IMG/VR virus record: IMGVR_UViG_3300018080_000470
Span: 1 to 29,051 of that record
Strand: one strand, 5' to 3'
DNA length: 29,051 nt
Source: a virus
This document shows positions 6,157 to 15,571 of this stretch, piece by piece. Both the position numbers and the translations under genes were made by a program. The stretch's first letter is position 1; the number at the start of each line of letters is the position of its first letter. The notes beneath the pieces are model-generated. The model searched no databases. It was not told the origin of the DNA and saw only the letters and a list, made by a program, of their open reading frames with translations.

Positions 6157-6582
6157 TTACCACCCTTCCATCTTGTCGCGGTCGAAGATCCGATCGTTAT
6201 ATGCGATGTCCGCCTCGTTGCCCGTAGTACTTGGTGCGGGCGTTGCAGCCCCAAGTTCTATTTCCCCCCCGGCGACCTTCTCAAGGAAACGGATCGCATC
6301 TTTGTACCGGTCTTTCCTTGTATCAGGCGCGGTATCATCCCGCCTGGAATAAAGATTATATATCGCTATATCGACGCTGATCTGTCGGATCTTGTCCGGA
6401 GTGGCATCGAGCGGAACCTCGTAGCGCCCCTGGCAGTAGGCATCGATAGTAGCATCCGCGTCTGCGATGGCGCGGGTCACGATGTCATCGTCCACTTCGC
6501 CCGCACCGGCATCGTCGGTCAACTCAATAAGCGTCGGCTCATCGAGCTGGTTCAGAATGTCCGCTTTCGCAGAATATGACAT
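6157..6582 (-). CDS. Mu gp36-like head-tail connector (DUF1320)
   Basis: This 141-residue protein fits DUF1320. It starts MSYSAKADILNQLDEPTLIELTDD, has the DADATIDAYCQGRYEVPL block and the DIAIYNLYSRRD block, and ends in a flexible tail. Mu gp36 and relatives form the head-tail connector that joins portal to tail. The family normally follows the major capsid gene closely, but here about 2.2 kb of other genes separate them (6586-8832), suggesting insertion of cargo genes at this junction. Confidence 0.9.
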   Translation of the reverse strand: MSYSAKADILNQLDEPTLIELTDDAGAGEVDDDIVTRAIADADATIDAYCQGRYEVPLDATPDKIRQISVDIAIYNLYSRRDDTAPDTRKDRYKDAIRFLEKVAGGEIELGAATPAPSTTGNEADIAYNDRIFDRDKMEGW

Positions 6583-6585
6583 TGC

Positions 6586-6891
6586 TCACTCCTTGAAATA
6601 AAAGTCATGCTCGTTTAAATACGCGATGGCATCCGCATACAGATCCCCCAGGTCCACCCGGGTCATGAAGTTGAAAACGTGACGGTTCCTTTCCCAGTCC
6701 TCCCATCGCGACAGCCTCTCGGCTGCGCAGATGAGATAAAATGCCATGCCGTCAACCGGGGCGATATGATTTTGGGGCCTGCCCGTTTCCCGGTTCCAAT
6801 CGAGATCCACGAATACAATCGCAATGGTTGCCACCACCCCTAGCAAGGACATGCAACTGATAAATGCGTACGCCTTAGCCTGCCTGTTCAT
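6586..6891 (-). CDS. Single-pass membrane protein of unknown function
   Basis: I start the gene at ATG 6891 (MNRQAKAYAFISCMSLLGV); an ATG five codons earlier at 6906 is also possible. About 20 hydrophobic residues near the N-terminus (AFISCMSLLGVVATIAIVFV) form one membrane helix, followed by an approximately 75-residue soluble part with RLSRWEDWERNRHVFNFMTR. The start overlaps the end of the O-antigen polymerase-like gene, so the two are translationally linked and may work together. I recognise no family. Confidence 0.6.
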   Translation of the reverse strand: MNRQAKAYAFISCMSLLGVVATIAIVFVDLDWNRETGRPQNHIAPVDGMAFYLICAAERLSRWEDWERNRHVFNFMTRVDLGDLYADAIAYLNEHDFYFKE

Positions 6892-7945
6892 CCGCTTTTT
6901 GCACATCGTAGAGCGCCATCCATGTCACGGCGATCATGGCCGTTGTGGCGACATGAAATCCGAAGTTGACCATACTGTTCGCGGCTATGATAACCAGTGC
7001 GACAGCAGGCAGCAGGGCCTGTGGCCTAAATGTCCGTATGGCATTTTGGACATATCCGGCCAACAAGATCACAAACCCGGCACCCATTTCAAACGCCATC
7101 TGAAGGTATTCATTGTGGGCCGTCGTCCACCACATGGTCCCGGTTAAAAGGAACCGCTTGAAAACCACTTTCCAGTGACCCAACCCTGAGCCGAGCATCC
7201 AGTGCTGCTTGTAATATCCCCACGCTTGCATCCATGAGTCCAATCTGGCGTTAAAGAATACCGGCATATCCACGAAGGCAACATATCCCAAAACCAGGCA
7301 CAACGCCATTGCCAGCCACAGCAAAGCTTTGCCCCTCACAAGGCTGTAGAATACAAGACCTGCCGCGAGCGCAATCGGCCCGCCCGTGCTCTTAGTCATC
7401 AGCAGTCCCCCTATGATGACAGGTATCAACCATTTCCAGCGCGGCCTCATGAATGCCGGAAAAGTGAATGCCAGGAGCGCGCTCGCCATGTTTTTATTGC
7501 TCATCAACCCGACCGGGGGATCATCGTTGCCCATGACCGGGGTGAATATCGGATCTACGTTGAACTGCTGGAGCATTAACATCACCACATTGGCTAAAGC
7601 GATAACGCACATGGCATTAAACATAAAATGCACCCGGCGAAAGTCAGAAGTTGACACTACCAAAAAATACCAGAGAACACCGAACAGGATATTAATAAAG
7701 GCGACATAGCTGTACCGGTCATAGAACGGCCACATCCGGCTGAATATGGACATGAGGAGAAAAAGGGCGATCCACTTGTTATGCCGCCAAAGCAGCACAG
7801 CCAGCCCTGCCGTTATCCCGATCTCGAAAACCAGCACGAAGGACAGCCGTATATCGTCGCAGGGGACCCGCAGTATAGAGGCCCCGGCCAAAATGACCGC
7901 CATCCATAGGCTAGGGCTACTGTGTGGCCGTGTAATAGAACGCAA
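6875..7945 (-). CDS. O-antigen polymerase/ligase-like integral membrane protein (Wzy/WaaL superfamily)
   Basis: About 350 residues with roughly ten hydrophobic segments. The long extracytoplasmic segment contains GLGHWKVVFKRFL and TTAHNEYLQMAFEMGAGFVILL; the H-N-x-[YF]-L-x-x-x-x-E-x-G pattern is characteristic of the Wzy_C/O-antigen ligase superfamily. An NKNMASALLAF motif in the middle also fits that family. These enzymes polymerise or transfer glycan to lipid carriers at the inner membrane. I keep the TTG at 7945 because GGAGGTGA precedes it; ATG 7903 is an alternative. It lies inside the head-tail gene cluster, an odd place for a cell-envelope enzyme, and is best read as a cargo (moron) gene for serotype conversion or exclusion. 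That role is inference. Confidence 0.75.
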   Translation of the reverse strand: MRSITRPHSSPSLWMAVILAGASILRVPCDDIRLSFVLVFEIGITAGLAVLLWRHNKWIALFLLMSIFSRMWPFYDRYSYVAFINILFGVLWYFLVVSTSDFRRVHFMFNAMCVIALANVVMLMLQQFNVDPIFTPVMGNDDPPVGLMSNKNMASALLAFTFPAFMRPRWKWLIPVIIGGLLMTKSTGGPIALAAGLVFYSLVRGKALLWLAMALCLVLGYVAFVDMPVFFNARLDSWMQAWGYYKQHWMLGSGLGHWKVVFKRFLLTGTMWWTTAHNEYLQMAFEMGAGFVILLAGYVQNAIRTFRPQALLPAVALVIIAANSMVNFGFHVATTAMIAVTWMALYDVQKADEQAG

Positions 7946-8852: not shown

Positions 8853-9827
8853 TTAGGTCGCGATGGTGTCGTACCAGAGAAACCCCAGATCCGAGCAGGC
8901 CTGGACGATGTCCGTGCTTTCGGCCACCTCGTAAACATCCTGATGCTCCGCCTCCTCGCGCCAGGTGGTCGAGCGCCTGGGGCTCCCGTCTTCATAGTTT
9001 TCCCGCGCCTGGTATCCCGCAGACGGAATTTTCAAACCCGGCGCTGGCGGGCGGTAAAACAGAAAGGCGGACCCCTTGCTCGCGTTCAGCTCCCATACGT
9101 TGACGGCGGTAAAATCGTCTCCGGCTGCAGTCTCTTCCGCGCTCGAATAGATGGCGTCCCCGATCAGGCACTCCTGGACCCCGACCACCGCGGCAATAAG
9201 GTCCGGCGTCAGCACGCCCCGCTGCGTATACTTAATGCGGTCAAGGAGTGACGACTCCATCTTCAACTCCTTGAGCGTGTTCGCGCTGAGCATAAGTACG
9301 TTCGGGCGTAGGCCGGTGTTGCCGCGTATCGTTTCGATCCGCGTCTCCACGTCCTCGATGAACGTATTGCTCGCCCCGGCCGCCCAGAGGCCTTCGGCGT
9401 CTTCGTTGGCGCTCGACCATGTGCTGTTCAGCACGATGTAGGCCGTCCTCTTTTCCTTGCTGAGGTCGATCTTGTCCGCCGCGAATTCTATGGCGTCCTG
9501 GTCCGGCTTTAGCGGCGGGGCCATCTGGCTGTTTGCAGCTCTTCTGTCCTCGTCGGTCACCTCTTTTGCGAAGGCGTACTCGGTCGGCGTCACGTTCACC
9601 CAGTCGGTCGGGTATCCGCCCCGCTTGGCCCGCGCCCCTGGACCGCGAACGTCCGCCTCATCGCGGAACCATGCGCCCTTCAGGTACTTCGCTATCATGG
9701 CTTTCGGGTCGACCCCGTTGATGATAGGGAAAACCCGGTCTGCAATGTAGTTCATGTTCTTATAGGCGATTGAAACCGTCCTGAGCGGTCCCCTCACCAG
9801 CTGTGCTCTCACGTCCGGTGGTGCCAT
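8853..9827 (-). CDS. Major capsid protein (HK97-fold, Mu-like siphophage type)
   Basis: This 324-residue protein follows protease/scaffold and cement genes, the usual place of the major head protein. It starts MAPPDVRAQLVRGPLRTVSIAYKN and includes DRVFPIINGVDPKAMIAKY, a PTDWVNVTPTEYAFAKEVTDEDRRAA block and NVWELNASKGSAFLFYRPP, which match capsid proteins of this Mu-like group. It assembles into the icosahedral shell with help from the nested scaffold at 10312-10926. The ATG has a GGAGG site 9 nt upstream. The call rests on motif recall plus position. Confidence 0.85.
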   Translation of the reverse strand: MAPPDVRAQLVRGPLRTVSIAYKNMNYIADRVFPIINGVDPKAMIAKYLKGAWFRDEADVRGPGARAKRGGYPTDWVNVTPTEYAFAKEVTDEDRRAANSQMAPPLKPDQDAIEFAADKIDLSKEKRTAYIVLNSTWSSANEDAEGLWAAGASNTFIEDVETRIETIRGNTGLRPNVLMLSANTLKELKMESSLLDRIKYTQRGVLTPDLIAAVVGVQECLIGDAIYSSAEETAAGDDFTAVNVWELNASKGSAFLFYRPPAPGLKIPSAGYQARENYEDGSPRRSTTWREEAEHQDVYEVAESTDIVQACSDLGFLWYDTIAT

Positions 9828-10311: not shown

Positions 10312-10926
10312 TTAAACCTGCACAATGCCGAGTTCTGCGTGATAATCCCTTACGAATTCCGGGTTTTTCGCCTGCACAAAAACGAACGCATCGTTGTAAC
10401 TCAGCTTTCCGTCTTCGGCCATCGCTTTCTCAATTAACCGGTCCAGCTTTTCCGACGCCTTTCCTGCAATCGGCGTGTCCTTTTTCCCGGGAAGTTCCTG
10501 CATGGGCACCTCGCTGAACTCTCTGCGCGACAAAATCACTCGCGTGAAGTTGTCCGGGTCTTTCAGCGCCATGTCCTTTCCGTATTCCTCCACCTGCGCC
10601 GGCGTGATCCGGCCGGACCCGAGCGCCTTCGCCACCAGTTCGTCCGCATTCCGCTCCGCCCATTTCTTCTTGAGGTCTTCATGGTCCTTTTTGAGCGCAA
10701 GCAGTTCAGTCTCCGCTTTGGTCGGCGACTTTATCGCAGCGAGCACCGCCTCCTTATCCGCGTCATGGCTCACGCCGATGGCGTCAAGCACTTCCTTGCA
10801 GGCGACTATTGTCCCCGCAGCCTCCAGATCCTTGTTTTTCGCGATCATGGCCTCGGCAGCATCGACAATCTTGTCTTCGCCGGCGTCATCCGCCAACCCC
10901 AAAAGTTTTTTCAGTTTTTCCAGCAT
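10312..10926 (-). CDS. Nested capsid scaffold protein (Mu Z-like), internal in-frame start
   Basis: Inside the protease gene an ATG at 10926 (MLEKLKKLLGLADDAGEDK) is in frame with the protease and lies 8 nt after a strong AGGAGG in the minus strand (10926-10945). The 204-residue C-terminal product is charged and helical (ELLALKKDHEDLKKKWAERNADEL), as expected for a scaffold. In Mu, gene Z is an internal start within protease gene I, so the layout is conserved. The internal ribosome site is seen; expression as a separate protein is inferred. Confidence 0.65.
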   Translation of the reverse strand: MLEKLKKLLGLADDAGEDKIVDAAEAMIAKNKDLEAAGTIVACKEVLDAIGVSHDADKEAVLAAIKSPTKAETELLALKKDHEDLKKKWAERNADELVAKALGSGRITPAQVEEYGKDMALKDPDNFTRVILSRREFSEVPMQELPGKKDTPIAGKASEKLDRLIEKAMAEDGKLSYNDAFVFVQAKNPEFVRDYHAELGIVQV

Positions 10927-11430
10927 TGCTTCTCCCTCCTGTTTTTTGTTTGTGTTGATATTATTCTGTCGCTCTTGATATGAGCGTTCCATCCTCGCGA
11001 CGATGGGCTGAAGGTTGTTGACCTTCGGGTAATTGGTGAGCCCGACGTTTTCCACCTTCCATATTTTGCGATCCTTTTTCGTGACCCAGAAAACCGGCGA
11101 GAAGTAGCGGTATTCCTTGTTCTTCAGATACTCCTTCGCCTTTTCGGTCCATTCGACGGCCGCCCAGAGCCCATCCTGCCCTTTGTCGATAAACCGCTTG
11201 ATCCATCCGGATGCAGGCGCCTGCACGTCTTTCATGGTCTGGTGTTCGTAGTCAATAACCGCGTCGTTCCCACGGCGTTCGAACTCGCTGATGACGGACG
11301 CGATGCCCTCCTCATCGAGATATGCGGGCTCCTCGCCCTCTATATCGATTTCGCCATAGGGAAACACCTGGAATTCATTCGGGACACCGTCTATTTCCTT
11401 CAAAATATAACGCAGAATCCAATCGCTCAT
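10312..11430 (-). CDS. Mu I-like prohead maturation protease with fused scaffold
   Basis: This 372-residue protein matches the Mu-like prophage I family. The protease part covers about residues 1-150 with GIASVISEFERRGNDAVIDYEHQT, WIKRFIDKGQDGLWAAVEWTEKAKEYL and a YFSPVFWV motif, all typical; VIDYEH probably holds active-site residues. From about residue 169 a helical, charged scaffold domain follows and can start independently (10312-10926). The enzyme cleaves scaffold and head proteins during capsid maturation. It lies between the MuF-like gene and the cement protein, as in Mu. Confidence 0.9.
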   Translation of the reverse strand: MSDWILRYILKEIDGVPNEFQVFPYGEIDIEGEEPAYLDEEGIASVISEFERRGNDAVIDYEHQTMKDVQAPASGWIKRFIDKGQDGLWAAVEWTEKAKEYLKNKEYRYFSPVFWVTKKDRKIWKVENVGLTNYPKVNNLQPIVARMERSYQERQNNINTNKKQEGEAMLEKLKKLLGLADDAGEDKIVDAAEAMIAKNKDLEAAGTIVACKEVLDAIGVSHDADKEAVLAAIKSPTKAETELLALKKDHEDLKKKWAERNADELVAKALGSGRITPAQVEEYGKDMALKDPDNFTRVILSRREFSEVPMQELPGKKDTPIAGKASEKLDRLIEKAMAEDGKLSYNDAFVFVQAKNPEFVRDYHAELGIVQV

Positions 11431-11435
11431 TTTCC

Positions 11436-11639
11436 CTACTCCTTTTTTTTCATCGCCGCTTCGAGGATTCGTCTCTCTTCCCTTTCGTATCTCGACAGGT
11501 CTGGCTTCCAGGCGTCAAGCCCTGCCTTCCCCGGATTATAGCGCCATCCTTCGTCCGGTTTTAAATCCGTTCCCTGTTTTTCCTCCTTAAGACCCCTTTG
11601 TTCCATCTGCCTCCCGGACAGCGTTTTCACGTAGCAGTG
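11436..11639 (-). CDS. MuF-like head protein, C-terminal part, in frame beyond the TGA
   Basis: Coding continues in the same frame immediately after the TGA at 11640-11642: HCYVKTLSGRQMEQRGL, then KPDEGWRYNPGKAG and WKPDLSRYEREERRIL, stopping at 11436 just before the protease start. These segments match the conserved C-terminal tail of Mu gp30-like proteins, where a CxC motif is followed by V-x-T-L-S and later by DEGWxYNPG and PDLSRY. A GTG at 11630 could start a separate 64-residue peptide, but no good ribosome site precedes it. The natural reading is one 248-codon gene (11436-12182) with a single internal TGA. Confidence 0.8.
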   Translation of the reverse strand, partial: HCYVKTLSGRQMEQRGLKEEKQGTDLKPDEGWRYNPGKAGLDAWKPDLSRYEREERRILEAAMKKKE

Positions 11640-11642
11640 TCA
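11607..11642 (-). promoter_or_regulatory. In-frame TGA with a short downstream stem-loop (possible SECIS-like element)
   Basis: The TGA (11640-11642) replaces the first Cys of the family's NG[FW]xCxC motif. On the minus strand, 18 nt after the TGA, CTGTC-CGGGA-GGCAG (11607-11621) can form a 5-bp stem, including one G-U pair, with a 5-nt loop whose second base is G. Distance and loop fit, as I recall them, the loose rules for bacterial selenocysteine insertion elements. The stem is short, so a chance hairpin is quite possible. Confidence 0.35.
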
Positions 11643-12182
11643 GAAAAAGCCGTTTGGAGGATACCACTCGCGCCAGAAGGGATGGTCCGCGTGATAGACC
11701 TTTTCGTGATGAGCGACATGGGTCGGCCTGGATGTATCCAGGAGCCGCGACATATACTGCCAGTACGGCCGCCTCGCCTTCACCGCCGTCATCTGCTTGT
11801 AGCGGCCCACCTGGTAAGCCGTCTGGAGGTTCGCCCGGTAGATGTTCTCCAACCGCCAGCCCGTCAGCCTTTTCCGGATCGTTCCGTCCGGAAGTTCCAC
11901 GATCGCCCGTTCACCCCTGGGAGCGAACCAGCCTTTTCGTTCGAGAATCTTTCGAAGTTCTTTCCTGAACGTTCCCAGGCTGATTCCTTCATCGAGCGCC
12001 TTCTGAATCTCGTCCCTGATATCTACCAGGGCGTCCATCGATGTCACCCGCGCGACCGTAAATGCTCGCGCATGGGCCTGCTGCCAGACATCCCGCCAGG
12101 ACTCGGGAGAAAGAACGATCCCTTTCTCCAGGAAATAATCGATCGCCTCCGAAAACGGCAGATTTCCGTATTTGACGGCCAT
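11640..12182 (-). CDS. MuF-like head morphogenesis protein (Mu gp30-like), part before the in-frame TGA
   Basis: The 180 residues before the TGA belong to the phage Mu F-like family, a minor head protein needed for head assembly and DNA ejection. Recognisable blocks are WRDVWQQAHARAFTVARVTS, an EGISLGTFRKELRKILERKGW segment, RLENIYRANLQTAYQVGRYKQM, a PYWQYMSRLLDTSRPTHVAHH block and HPFWREWYPPNGFF, where the family normally reads PPNG[WF]xCxC. The gene ends there at TGA, although the usual family protein continues with a conserved C-terminus, found in frame at 11436-11639. The ATG overlaps the portal stop at 12182. The TGA could encode selenocysteine, be read through, or be an inactivating mutation. 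Confidence 0.88.
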   Translation of the reverse strand: MAVKYGNLPFSEAIDYFLEKGIVLSPESWRDVWQQAHARAFTVARVTSMDALVDIRDEIQKALDEGISLGTFRKELRKILERKGWFAPRGERAIVELPDGTIRKRLTGWRLENIYRANLQTAYQVGRYKQMTAVKARRPYWQYMSRLLDTSRPTHVAHHEKVYHADHPFWREWYPPNGFF

Positions 12183-13756
12183 CAGTCTTCATCCGCCTCC
12201 GCCGCCGCATACCCGGTCAGCCCGGCTGCGAACATGGCCTTCGCAAGCAATTCCTCGAACTCTTTCCCATCGAGCATCGGATATAAAGTATAAATCTTCT
12301 CACCTATCTCTTCCAGCGATTCCGCCCCCTCGATCATGTCGAGAACCGGCTTCAACAAAGCGGAAACGGCCCTGTTTGCCGCAATAGCCCCGTCCCGCGA
12401 CAGATTGTCCACGTCCTCTTGAGAAAAACGGTTCTCGTCGCGTTTTGCGCTCTTCATGATCATTTTCAATGATGCCGGCGCGGCCGGCTGCTCCGGTCCC
12501 CGAACCTGAAGCAAGGTCTCCCCTTCCTCGGGCATGGGGATGCCGAACCGGTCTCTCACATGCTCGGCGGAGACGGGCTGCCCGAATTCCACCAGGTTTT
12601 TATAGACCTCGCTCAGCGTCTTCAGGTCCTCCGGCTCCTGGAGGTGGAACTGGAACCAGGGAACGGGCGCGTCCCACCCGAAATTGAAGCCGACAAGAGG
12701 ACGCAACACCTGCATCCTGAGCGTGTTGGCCAGGGACCAGGAGTCCGACTTTACCAGGTCCAGCCTTACTTCGTTGTGCGTCTTGCTCGCTGCGTACGAC
12801 CCCTTTTCCCCCACGTCGGTCGTGAGGGTCGCGCCCACGATCGCCTTCGAGATCTCACGGTTGCAAAAATCGGCCAGGGCCTTGTATACGTTTTCCTTTG
12901 TCGACCCCTTCATCGCCTCGACAAACTCGATCTCCGTGCTGTCGCTTATAATGCCCGCCGCATCGGCCCCGAGCGCCTGGATGGCGGTTACGAGCGCGTC
13001 CTTATCGTCCGTGCTGGCTCCGGGATGGTATTTTCCGAGCCTGAGCGGCATCCCGAACACTTCGCAAAAGGCCACCCAGTCCTTGATTGAGTAATTCTTG
13101 AAAAGGTACATCCAGGCGCACACCCTGAGCATGCCGGCCCTGGTGTCGTAGCCGGACCGGGCCTTGTGCCTGTGGTAAACGACCTTGAAGGGCGGGATCT
13201 CCTCGCCGAAAAGATTCTGGTCCGTAATTATTCGAGGTGAAAAATCCTTCACAAACGTCAGCCTCTTCTGATGTATCCACTTGAGCCCAGTAATCACGGT
13301 GTTGCTGCCGTCGACATCCCACAGAATCTCGCTGGCTGCGAAGCCTTTCCCGATCGCGTCGAGGAGGTCGAACAGGCTGTCCTCGAAATCCGGCATGGAA
13401 AAAAGGACGTCCCTGCAAAAATCGGCGACTTTTTCATCCTTTTTGTCCGGTTTTTCTTTGAGTTTCGATCCTTCGCCGTAAGGCGCGATGCCGAAGTTTA
13501 ATGAGTTGACGGCGTTTTTTCTTTTGAGCAGTTCGGCCGAAAGATGCGTATCCTTTTCCTCCATCTCCTCGAAAAGCTCTGACTGGCTCGTGACATCCCC
13601 CTGGTCAGCCAGCAACAGTATGGATGCCAGCCGCTCCGGCGTGAGCCCCCGGCTCGGGTAGGTACTCCACCGGTCTTTGATCGACACCTTCGAGACTTCC
13701 GACCGGACAGGCTTCCGCAGCTCCCTGACCCGCCTCCCGAATTGATCCAGTATCAT
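12182..13756 (-). CDS. Portal protein (Mu gp29-like, DUF935)
   Basis: The 524-residue protein forms the dodecameric portal through which DNA is packaged and ejected. It has the DUF935 N-terminus (WSTYPSRGLTPERLASILLLADQGDVTSQSELFEEMEEKD), the KRKNAVNSLNFGI block, a wing region with GKGFAASEILWD and HQKRLTFV, and KNYSIKDWVAFCEVFGMPLRLGKY followed by STEIEFVEA and a QTLTTDVGEKGSYA-like ATLTTDVGEKGSYAASKTHNEV motif. All are conserved in Mu-like portals. The ATG shares a base with the terminase stop (TAATG at 13756), so translation is coupled. Confidence 0.94.
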   Translation of the reverse strand: MILDQFGRRVRELRKPVRSEVSKVSIKDRWSTYPSRGLTPERLASILLLADQGDVTSQSELFEEMEEKDTHLSAELLKRKNAVNSLNFGIAPYGEGSKLKEKPDKKDEKVADFCRDVLFSMPDFEDSLFDLLDAIGKGFAASEILWDVDGSNTVITGLKWIHQKRLTFVKDFSPRIITDQNLFGEEIPPFKVVYHRHKARSGYDTRAGMLRVCAWMYLFKNYSIKDWVAFCEVFGMPLRLGKYHPGASTDDKDALVTAIQALGADAAGIISDSTEIEFVEAMKGSTKENVYKALADFCNREISKAIVGATLTTDVGEKGSYAASKTHNEVRLDLVKSDSWSLANTLRMQVLRPLVGFNFGWDAPVPWFQFHLQEPEDLKTLSEVYKNLVEFGQPVSAEHVRDRFGIPMPEEGETLLQVRGPEQPAAPASLKMIMKSAKRDENRFSQEDVDNLSRDGAIAANRAVSALLKPVLDMIEGAESLEEIGEKIYTLYPMLDGKEFEELLAKAMFAAGLTGYAAAEADED

Positions 13757-15057
13757 TACCAGGCCCCTTTCCGTTCGTTGAACCGGCGTTTGGCTACGGT
13801 TTGATATTCTATAGGTCCGGCCGGTGTGCCCGCCGCATGTGTCGCAAGGGCGTCCGCCCAGAATTCGTCTGCATGGCCTTTTTCCGTGCGGTCCGCGTCG
13901 AATCGAGGATTCCCGGCCGCCGTGACCAGCTTTTTAACCGCGTGGTGGCTATTCCTGATATCCTGCTCAACCGGGATGCGTTTTTTCCTGTCCTGAAACT
14001 TCTGTTTGATCTCGGTGGCCAGCTCCAGCTTGACGGGTCCCGTAAACAGCACCCCTTCGACCCTGTATTCCCCGTAGCGGCGTTTGGCGTCTTCGACCGG
14101 TTTTTCCCCCATGCCCGTCTGGTCCATGCACAGGCGGTCTATGTCGTACCGATCGAAAACCCGTGCGAGTTCGGCGTCCTGCTCGGCGAAAGTGGCCCGC
14201 CGCATCCTCACAACCTCCCGGTTCCAGAGCACGTCCCCTATCATCTCGTCGACCCAGATTACCGCAAGATCTCGCCGAATCCCGATGTCCATCCCGGCAT
14301 AGCACTTGCCGCCTTCATACCTGTCCGGATCTCCGGCCGCATCGTCCTCGCACGAGCAGATCAGGTCATAATCCAGCCACGCGCTCGCTTCATCCAGCCA
14401 CTGAAGCTCGTATTCCTGCGCCCAGGCGTCCGGGTCACCGAGTCCGATTCTCAGTTCCTCAATGTTGCGCGGCAGGCCGTCCTCAACCGCCTGATAAATG
14501 TCCGTCACCTGCCGGTACCAGAGATCGTCTTTCCCGGTCATAAGATCGTAAAACTTGTTGCCCTTGCCGTTCGGCGTGCTAACGACCCTGATCTTGTGTC
14601 CTGCGGATATGACCGGAAAAAGCGCCGCCCAGATCTTGAGGCTGTCCTGGTGAAAGGCGAATTCATCCAAAAAGACGTTCGCCGAAAAACCCCTGGCCGT
14701 ATCCGGATTCGCGGGCAGCGCCGTCACGCGGCTCCCTCCCGGCCATTCGACCTCCTGAGACCGGTATGTCGCTTCTCCCCTGTAGTCGCTCTCATACGCC
14801 TTGATGATGGACCCCATAGCCTGGCAGTGCCGCTTGAGGCCCTCCTCGACGGCCTCCTTGGCCTGCCTTTCTCCCCTTGACAGAATGACCCACCGGACCC
14901 GTTTGCCTTCGAGCTCGGACTCCTGGCAAGCTTTGGCTATTTCGAATGTCGTGCAAAAGGTCTTGCCTGTCTGACGGGCGAACATCCCGGTCTTGAATCT
15001 GCGGGGGCTCGAGATCCATCGCCGCTGGTATCCGTAAAATATGGGATCAGACCCCAT
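13756..15057 (-). CDS. Terminase large subunit (Mu gp28-like)
   Basis: This packaging motor has an N-terminal ATPase and a C-terminal nuclease. I start it at ATG 15057 because AAGGAG lies 4 nt upstream; an upstream start at 15093 has no such support. In this 433-residue version the Walker A-like FARQTGKT is at residues 26-33 and the Walker B VFLDEF at 128-133. An RNase H-like nuclease follows, with CYAGMDIGIRRDLAVIWVDE and later LCMDQTGMGE, and a C-terminal GHADEFWADALATH containing acidic residues typical of the active site. In Mu-like phages the enzyme packages integrated DNA by headful cutting. It overlaps the small subunit by 11 bp. Confidence 0.93.
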   Translation of the reverse strand: MGSDPIFYGYQRRWISSPRRFKTGMFARQTGKTFCTTFEIAKACQESELEGKRVRWVILSRGERQAKEAVEEGLKRHCQAMGSIIKAYESDYRGEATYRSQEVEWPGGSRVTALPANPDTARGFSANVFLDEFAFHQDSLKIWAALFPVISAGHKIRVVSTPNGKGNKFYDLMTGKDDLWYRQVTDIYQAVEDGLPRNIEELRIGLGDPDAWAQEYELQWLDEASAWLDYDLICSCEDDAAGDPDRYEGGKCYAGMDIGIRRDLAVIWVDEMIGDVLWNREVVRMRRATFAEQDAELARVFDRYDIDRLCMDQTGMGEKPVEDAKRRYGEYRVEGVLFTGPVKLELATEIKQKFQDRKKRIPVEQDIRNSHHAVKKLVTAAGNPRFDADRTEKGHADEFWADALATHAAGTPAGPIEYQTVAKRRFNERKGAW

Positions 15058-15571
15058 ACTGCTCCTTGATAATCTCCCGAAAACGATCCGCACTCATCGG
15101 GCCGTCCTTTTCCGCCGCATCGACGGCGTTCGCCACATCCTCGAAAGCCTGCTTTCGAACCTTGTCTTCCATCTCCTGCGCCCACTTTTTCTGCCGGACC
15201 GCCGCCTGGCTCAACTTGGCCACCGCCTGCCCTATCTTCGCCAGGCTTTTGTCGTTGAGCTCTATGTCCACCAACAATTCAAACATCTTCGTCTGCACGA
15301 GCCGGATGATGGCATCGTTCAACTCGCCGGCGTCATCCTCGGAGGCCTCCGCGATCGCCTTTGCCTGATCCGTCGCGACCTTCAAGGCCCTGAGTTTTTC
15401 CTCGAATTTTTTGCCGTACCGGTGGACGCTCGACTTGCTTATCTCAAAACCCTTTGTTTCAAGCCATTCAGCAAGCCCGACATAATCCGCAAACCCGCCC
15501 CGGATCAGCTTCCGCTCCAGCTCCTGCCGGACGTCTTCAGGTAAAAGTTCCACGCTCGATCTCAGCATCAT
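15047..15571 (-). CDS. Small terminase-like DNA-binding protein (Mu gp27-like, DUF3486)
   Basis: The family normally begins close to RSSVELLPEDVRQELERKLI, so I place the start at ATG 15571 (a second ATG follows at 15568); an upstream ATG at 15637 would add residues atypical of the family and a 59-bp overlap. The 174-residue product has an N-terminal helix-turn-helix (FADYVGLAEWLETKGFEISKSSVHRYGKKFEEKL) typical of DUF3486, then long helices and a basic C-terminus. It probably recognises phage DNA and recruits the large terminase. It ends inside the large subunit's start region, indicating coupled expression. Confidence 0.87.
   Translation of the reverse strand: MMLRSSVELLPEDVRQELERKLIRGGFADYVGLAEWLETKGFEISKSSVHRYGKKFEEKLRALKVATDQAKAIAEASEDDAGELNDAIIRLVQTKMFELLVDIELNDKSLAKIGQAVAKLSQAAVRQKKWAQEMEDKVRKQAFEDVANAVDAAEKDGPMSADRFREIIKEQYGV

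Follow-up and report, generated by a model that had tools for sequence, protein, structure and literature searches.

UGA at a conserved cysteine position in the minor head protein gene of a Mu-like phage points to a phage selenoprotein

Does a phage structural gene with an in-frame UGA at a conserved cysteine position encode a selenoprotein, or is there a simpler explanation for the stop? The question is raised by a MuF-like minor head protein gene (F) in the IMG/VR virus record IMGVR_UViG_3300018080_000470, of which the whole stretch of 29,051 nt was analysed (the window). The gene runs on the minus strand from 12182 to 11436, with an ATG at 12182–12180 and a TAG stop at 11438–11436, and comprises 248 codons when its UGA is read through. 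This UGA (11640–11642, minus strand, codon 181; WYPPNGFF-TGA-HCYVKTLS), the proposed selenocysteine (Sec) codon, occupies the place of the first Cys (Cys1) of a CxC motif. The second Cys (Cys2) is encoded by a TGC at 11634–11636 (minus strand, codon 183), a position at which other phages carry UGA. The remaining C-terminal segment (11439–11633, minus strand) is translated only with UGA readthrough and is conserved with the homologues L017, L090 and L022 (L-numbers label the compared loci). A sequence-only reading of the window had described PPNGFF-TGA-HCYVKTLS followed in frame by DEGW, YNPG and PDLSRY, which we could confirm, with exactly one in-frame TGA.

The assignment of the gene to the MuF-like head proteins also held, and the strand, absent from that reading, is minus. 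A Pfam search matched the product to PF04233 (E 1.6e-16, 61.4 bits; cut-off 29.6), as it did all 65 aligned relatives, and F belongs to PHROG 220, ‘minor head protein and DNA pilot’. The late operon is Mu-like, in the order terminase, portal, F, protease, scaffold, major head protein and tail genes, with transposition genes further upstream. F lies between a Mu-type portal protein gene (12182–13756, PF06074) on one side and Mu-like protease/scaffold genes on the other (Mu-like prophage I protease/scaffold gene, 10312–11430, PF10123); the terminase large subunit (13756–15093, PF03237/PF17289) and the major head protein (8853–9827, PHROG 1005) are likewise encoded on the minus strand. The portal gene stops at a UGA (12184–12182) that overlaps the F start as UGAUG, so UGA terminates translation normally within the operon of F. 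The domain, the portal-adjacent place and the motif region are those of phage Mu gpF and SPP1 gp7, which we take to be Cys-x-Cys proteins themselves; among the related MuF genes, 46 of the 80 compared are Cys-x-Cys, whereas the window gene has UGA for Cys1. An AlphaFold model of the F protein had a mean pLDDT of 80.5; a comparison with PDB folds gave no match at E ≤ 0.001, and a profile search for solved relatives of F returned none that was convincing and one spurious match. In SPP1, the homologue gp7 attaches to the portal and travels within the procapsid; assembly can proceed in its absence, but only ∼25% of the virions that lack it are infectious (PMC6316719). Delivery of C-terminal effectors may be a further role of MuF proteins (PMC5512222).

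The sequence-only reading had proposed that the base be checked. A second assembly, IMGVR_UViG_3300017991_000685, matches the window at 100% identity across 6744 bases that include the TGA. Because the same TGA is present in both assemblies, an assembly or base-call error is very unlikely, with the reservation that the two data sets could share one site.

We then asked which residues homologues carry at the motif. For an unbiased sample, phages were drawn via the neighbouring portal gene, blind to TGA, which yielded 69 F genes with a readable motif. Cys1 was TGC or TGT in 57 of them and TGA in 12, and Cys2 was TGC or TGT in 66, TGA in two and displaced by an intein-like insert in one. No missense residue was found at Cys1 or Cys2 in these 69 genes. 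For relatives of the window phage, the resulting UGA frequency of 14/69 is to be preferred over one taken from the pattern-enriched sample. Counting everything compared, UGA occurred at Cys1 in 24 distinct viral genes, at Cys2 in 10 and at both in three (four contigs), and all remaining homologues with a readable motif had Cys. In the alignment of 65 relatives, with UGA read as Cys, the only invariant columns were G66, G84, N118, G126, R152, H155, W170, C181 and C183. The UGA-bearing phages are divergent (30–70% identity), and in each of them the UGA coincides with Cys1, Cys2 or both. The phenomenon is wider than first described: it extends over a whole class of phages, and UGA is also found at Cys2 or at both positions.

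Pattern scans of IMG/VR gave the same picture. YPPNGxx-TGA-x-Cys produced 25 matches, 23 of them MuF frames, and moving the TGA to the second Cys produced 21, of which 16 were MuF. With TGA at both Cys there were 25 matches, comprising four MuF contigs and chance hits in short frames. Control scans with TAA or TAG at the first or second Cys gave 9 and 11 matches and no MuF frame; since a single base separates TGA from TGC/TGT, whereas TAA/TAG differ from them by two, the type of stop is not decisive alone, and the weight falls on the recurrence of UGA, its spread over several lineages and the translation of the sequence behind it. The four double-UGA MuF contigs (L169, L177, L180 and L186, of which L177 and L186 look alike) read UGA-x-UGA, a possible Sec-x-Sec, and are conserved on both flanks.

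To see how the states are distributed, we used a maximum-likelihood tree of 80 genes (46 Cys/Cys, 24 with UGA at Cys1 and 10 with UGA at Cys2), whose UGA genes were enriched by the pattern scans, so that its frequencies are not natural frequencies. UGA genes are scattered over this tree and do not form one lineage. At least 19 state changes are needed to explain it, and well-supported branches alone force at least 11 changes between Cys/Cys and UGA. The window gene pairs with the Cys/Cys gene L022 (70% identity), the two being surrounded by UGA genes, and L099 (UGA at Cys1) and L124 (UGA at Cys2) are sisters. The Cys/Cys gene L014 (and L013) has retained the hairpin, resembling a bacterial Sec insertion element (SECIS), of its UGA sisters L008–L011. 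As a retained hairpin within a UGA group is what a recent change from Sec to Cys would leave behind, L014 (and L013) is likely such a reversion.

If the codons after the UGA are translated, they should evolve as protein-coding sequence. In UGA–UGA pairs with unsaturated synonymous sites (L010/L011, L010/L008, L010/L009, L094/L096, L103/L110, L039/L042 and L123/L136), dN/dS was 0.05–0.32 downstream of the UGA and 0.02–0.20 upstream. Between the window gene and L017, L090 and L022, pN/pS downstream of the UGA was 0.25–0.27, with synonymous sites saturated. These substitution patterns indicate that purifying selection acts on the frame downstream of the UGA just as it does upstream, and that the downstream frame is translated.

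Bacterial Sec codons are followed by a hairpin, and the sequence-only reading had pointed to a small stem-loop behind the UGA. It exists: the putative bacterial SECIS hairpin CUGUC-CGGGA-GGCAG (11607–11621, minus strand) has a stem that begins 18 nt after the UGA, a loop 23 nt after it and a G as the second loop base. Its predicted energy is only −3.5 kcal/mol, however, with p = 0.35 against synonymous shuffles of this single gene. Since L022, the closest Cys relative of the window gene, has a similar stem, the hairpin may be a by-product of the LSGRQ codons.

At the level of the family, a link between hairpin and UGA was borne out. The best hairpin was scored with our own scorer rather than bSECISearch; in line with the bSECIS model of bSECISearch, one of the first two loop bases had to be G, and the loop had to start 13–30 nt after the UGA. 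The mean hairpin energy was −7.5 kcal/mol in both UGA groups, compared to −2.6 and −2.0 kcal/mol for Cys genes at the same offsets (Mann–Whitney p 2e-6 and 4e-6). Similarly, the mean z against synonymous-codon shuffles was −1.65 and −1.96 in UGA genes, compared to −0.43 and −0.34 in Cys genes. With −3.4 kcal/mol as the threshold, a hairpin was present in 31 of 34 UGA genes versus 18 of 46 Cys genes; one UGA gene, L087, had no hairpin under our rule. In 11 tree-independent pairs, the hairpin went with UGA in about 6–7 and against it in about 0 (sign test, median p 0.03 and 0.016 at two cut-offs, the latter at −4.5). The stems vary in sequence among lineages while the pairing is kept, as exemplified by L024 (CCACC-GGUC-GGUGG), L039 (CCACA-GGUU-UGUGG) and L101 (CCUGUC-CGGGC-GACAGG). 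Double-UGA genes have one hairpin each, with the loop 24–27 nt from the first UGA and 18–21 nt from the second, and this one hairpin could serve both UGAs, which could also explain the switching between positions. An Rfam search of the hairpin region returned no relevant match.

Could the UGA nevertheless be something other than a Sec codon? A nonsense mutation of TGC or TGT in a truncated or dying gene, or a sequencing artefact, might be suspected because TGA is a single substitution away from both Cys codons, so that its preponderance over TAA and TAG is partly expected, and many phage contigs are fragments. This does not fit the identical base in the second assembly, the fact that the same two codons are hit in many lineages with no other residue appearing there, or the conservation of the double-UGA genes, and the long intact frames under purifying selection beyond the UGA speak strongly against it. 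Furthermore, among ∼70 MuF matches in 398 Pseudomonadota genomes, internal stops occurred only in one broken fragment, and internal UGA is thus not a common decay state. We regard mutation or error as very improbable. Programmed readthrough with an ordinary amino acid, yielding short and long forms, has a slightly better claim and is still very improbable. It would suit a UGA near the end of the MuF domain, where it would part the domain from a C-terminal extension, and some relatives have C-terminal effector domains, with a weak ADP-ribosyltransferase match beyond the UGA in L100. Yet the UGA lies on the invariant CxC motif, not after it; it is found at Cys1, Cys2 or both, where the residue is otherwise always Cys, and UAA and UAG are never used. 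The UGA-associated hairpin with bacterial SECIS spacing would also be left without a place in such a scheme.

A genome-wide reassignment, in which a tRNA of the phage or its host reads UGA as Cys (or another residue), would account for the alignment of UGA with Cys only. Within the window, however, UGA is the stop of 4 of the 20 tiled genes, portal included, and is internal in F alone; the F genes of L017, L026, L039, L042 and L047 themselves end in UGA. No tRNA genes were found in the window, and no phage tRNA reading UGA in the loci scanned. Reassignment is extremely unlikely. Equally remote is an arrangement of two genes, a 180-aa MuF protein and a downstream 64-codon ORF starting at a GTG at 11630. 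The list of ORFs does show this GTG start, but it is not preceded by a ribosome-binding site, all Cys homologues have the two parts as one continuous frame, and the split would cut the invariant CxC.

A Sec codon thus remains our preferred reading. UGA at Cys positions only, purifying selection downstream of it, the hairpin association and the second assembly all support the selenoprotein first proposed for the window, and we consider it very probable that the gene encodes a phage selenoprotein in which the host decodes UGA 181 as Sec, directed by the downstream bacterial SECIS hairpin. The SelA/SelB/SelD/tRNASec system of the host would decode the codon, with the SelB–tRNASec complex reading the UGA aided by the hairpin directly downstream. 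The product would be a full-length protein with Sec-x-Cys where the family has Cys-x-Cys; without selenium or SelB, it would end after 180 aa, short of the CxC motif. Across the Mu-like phage family, the motif would then exist as Cys-Cys, Sec-Cys, Cys-Sec or Sec-Sec and would have switched repeatedly.

Is there a host with the required machinery? The UGA provirus L103, related to the window phage, belongs to IMG genome 2593339183, which is the Trout Bog composite genome 2922v2, 93% complete and listed among Desulfobulbaceae/Desulfobacterales MAGs (PMC7341956). Other Desulfobulbia genomes contain 22, 40 and 43 known selenoprotein genes (PMC12013277). Sulfate reducers are the likely hosts; a search for the UGA MuF pattern in the 398 Pseudomonadota genomes found none, and L101 and L103 DNA, compared with plasmids and phages, did not lead to an informative host assignment. 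In 18 records of UGA phages, no tRNASec was found over threshold (a weak match on the L100 contig was a tRNA-Met), so that Sec decoding would rest wholly on the host. If the proposal is right, UGA would be a host-range marker, and such phages should need hosts with Sec machinery.

Compared to known systems, the phage gene resembles bacterial selenoproteins that depend on SelB and a bSECIS, such as E. coli FdhF, in having UGA at a Cys position, a hairpin immediately downstream within the coding sequence and a G at the start of the loop. The GGUC and GGUU loops of L024, L096, L042 and L039 are presumably like that of fdhF as well. Unlike FdhF-type selenoproteins, the phage case concerns a virion gene known from its sequence, and the window hairpin is weak. 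Among viruses of eukaryotes, poxviruses encode a glutathione peroxidase selenoprotein, a captured host enzyme with a eukaryotic SECIS in the 3′ UTR. The phages would likewise rely on host Sec machinery to express a viral gene, with the difference that theirs is a structural protein with an in-frame hairpin of bacterial type. Basilisk-like Bacillus phages were reported in 2018 to have a predicted tRNASec gene, called the first in phages and of unknown significance (PMC6145125); there, a tRNASec gene is present and no selenoprotein was identified, whereas the 18 UGA phage records gave no tRNASec above threshold. T7 evolved on E. coli reading UAG as Sec showed no selenocysteine-specific adaptation (PMC8923235), an engineered test of phage selenium bonds of which the UGA phages would be the natural counterpart.

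Both MuF proteins and selenoproteins have been described before, and it is the natural phage selenoprotein that is apparently new: a search of the open-access literature found no earlier report, and a 2025 deep-Sep paper makes no mention of phages. If the proposal is right, the UGA phages would, to our knowledge, be the first bacterial viruses with natural selenoproteins, and the protein would be a structural component of the head rather than a metabolic enzyme. In practical terms, gene callers for which UGA can only be a stop would cut the gene short in many phages and lose the CxC motif.

What might the pair do? The exchange among CC, UC, CU and UU (U, Sec) suggests a chemical role, either as a bond or redox switch or in metal binding with the invariant H155, and since selenium is used where chemistry (redox or bonding) matters, the role of the MuF CxC motif would become testable. 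In the head, the U/C-x-C/U pair could be redox-active, bond-forming (selenenylsulfide or diselenide) or metal-binding. We tend to favour a bond or redox role over metal binding, on the argument (made in PMC8923235) that a reducing cytoplasm does not keep diselenide and selenenylsulfide bonds from forming. More tentatively, and with the odds against so broad a scheme, a widespread class of Mu-like phages with selenium-using hosts might have virion selenoproteins whose Sec/Cys pair (including Sec-x-Sec) forms a selenium bond or serves as a redox switch within the minor head/pilot protein; infection would then depend on the selenium status of the host, and the pair would be switched to and from Cys with changes of host. 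The repeated switching between Cys and Sec, in four combinations, would amount to a natural experiment in selenocysteine evolution.

We also examined a candidate for a second Sec site in the window, between 6586–6906 and 6157–6582 (minus strand, same frame, UGA-GCA-AUG), and rejected it as an ordinary gene boundary, since the stop overlaps an AAGGAG ribosome-binding site just ahead of an ATG. Elsewhere in the family, the MuF gene L025:6564-8111 has an intein-like insert (PF14890, E 1.5e-9) directly before Cys1 (PPNGYN, then CFPPWTNVL...TVHN, then CRCGVNP), another sign that the CxC motif is a functional hot spot. Two UGA-bearing MuF genes are extended at their C-termini: L039:6657-8123 by a long segment weakly resembling DUF3626, below the Pfam cut-off, and L100:4764-6167 by the weak ADP-ribosyltransferase match, also below the Pfam cut-off, so that in L100 the production of a C-terminal phage effector may depend on Sec decoding.
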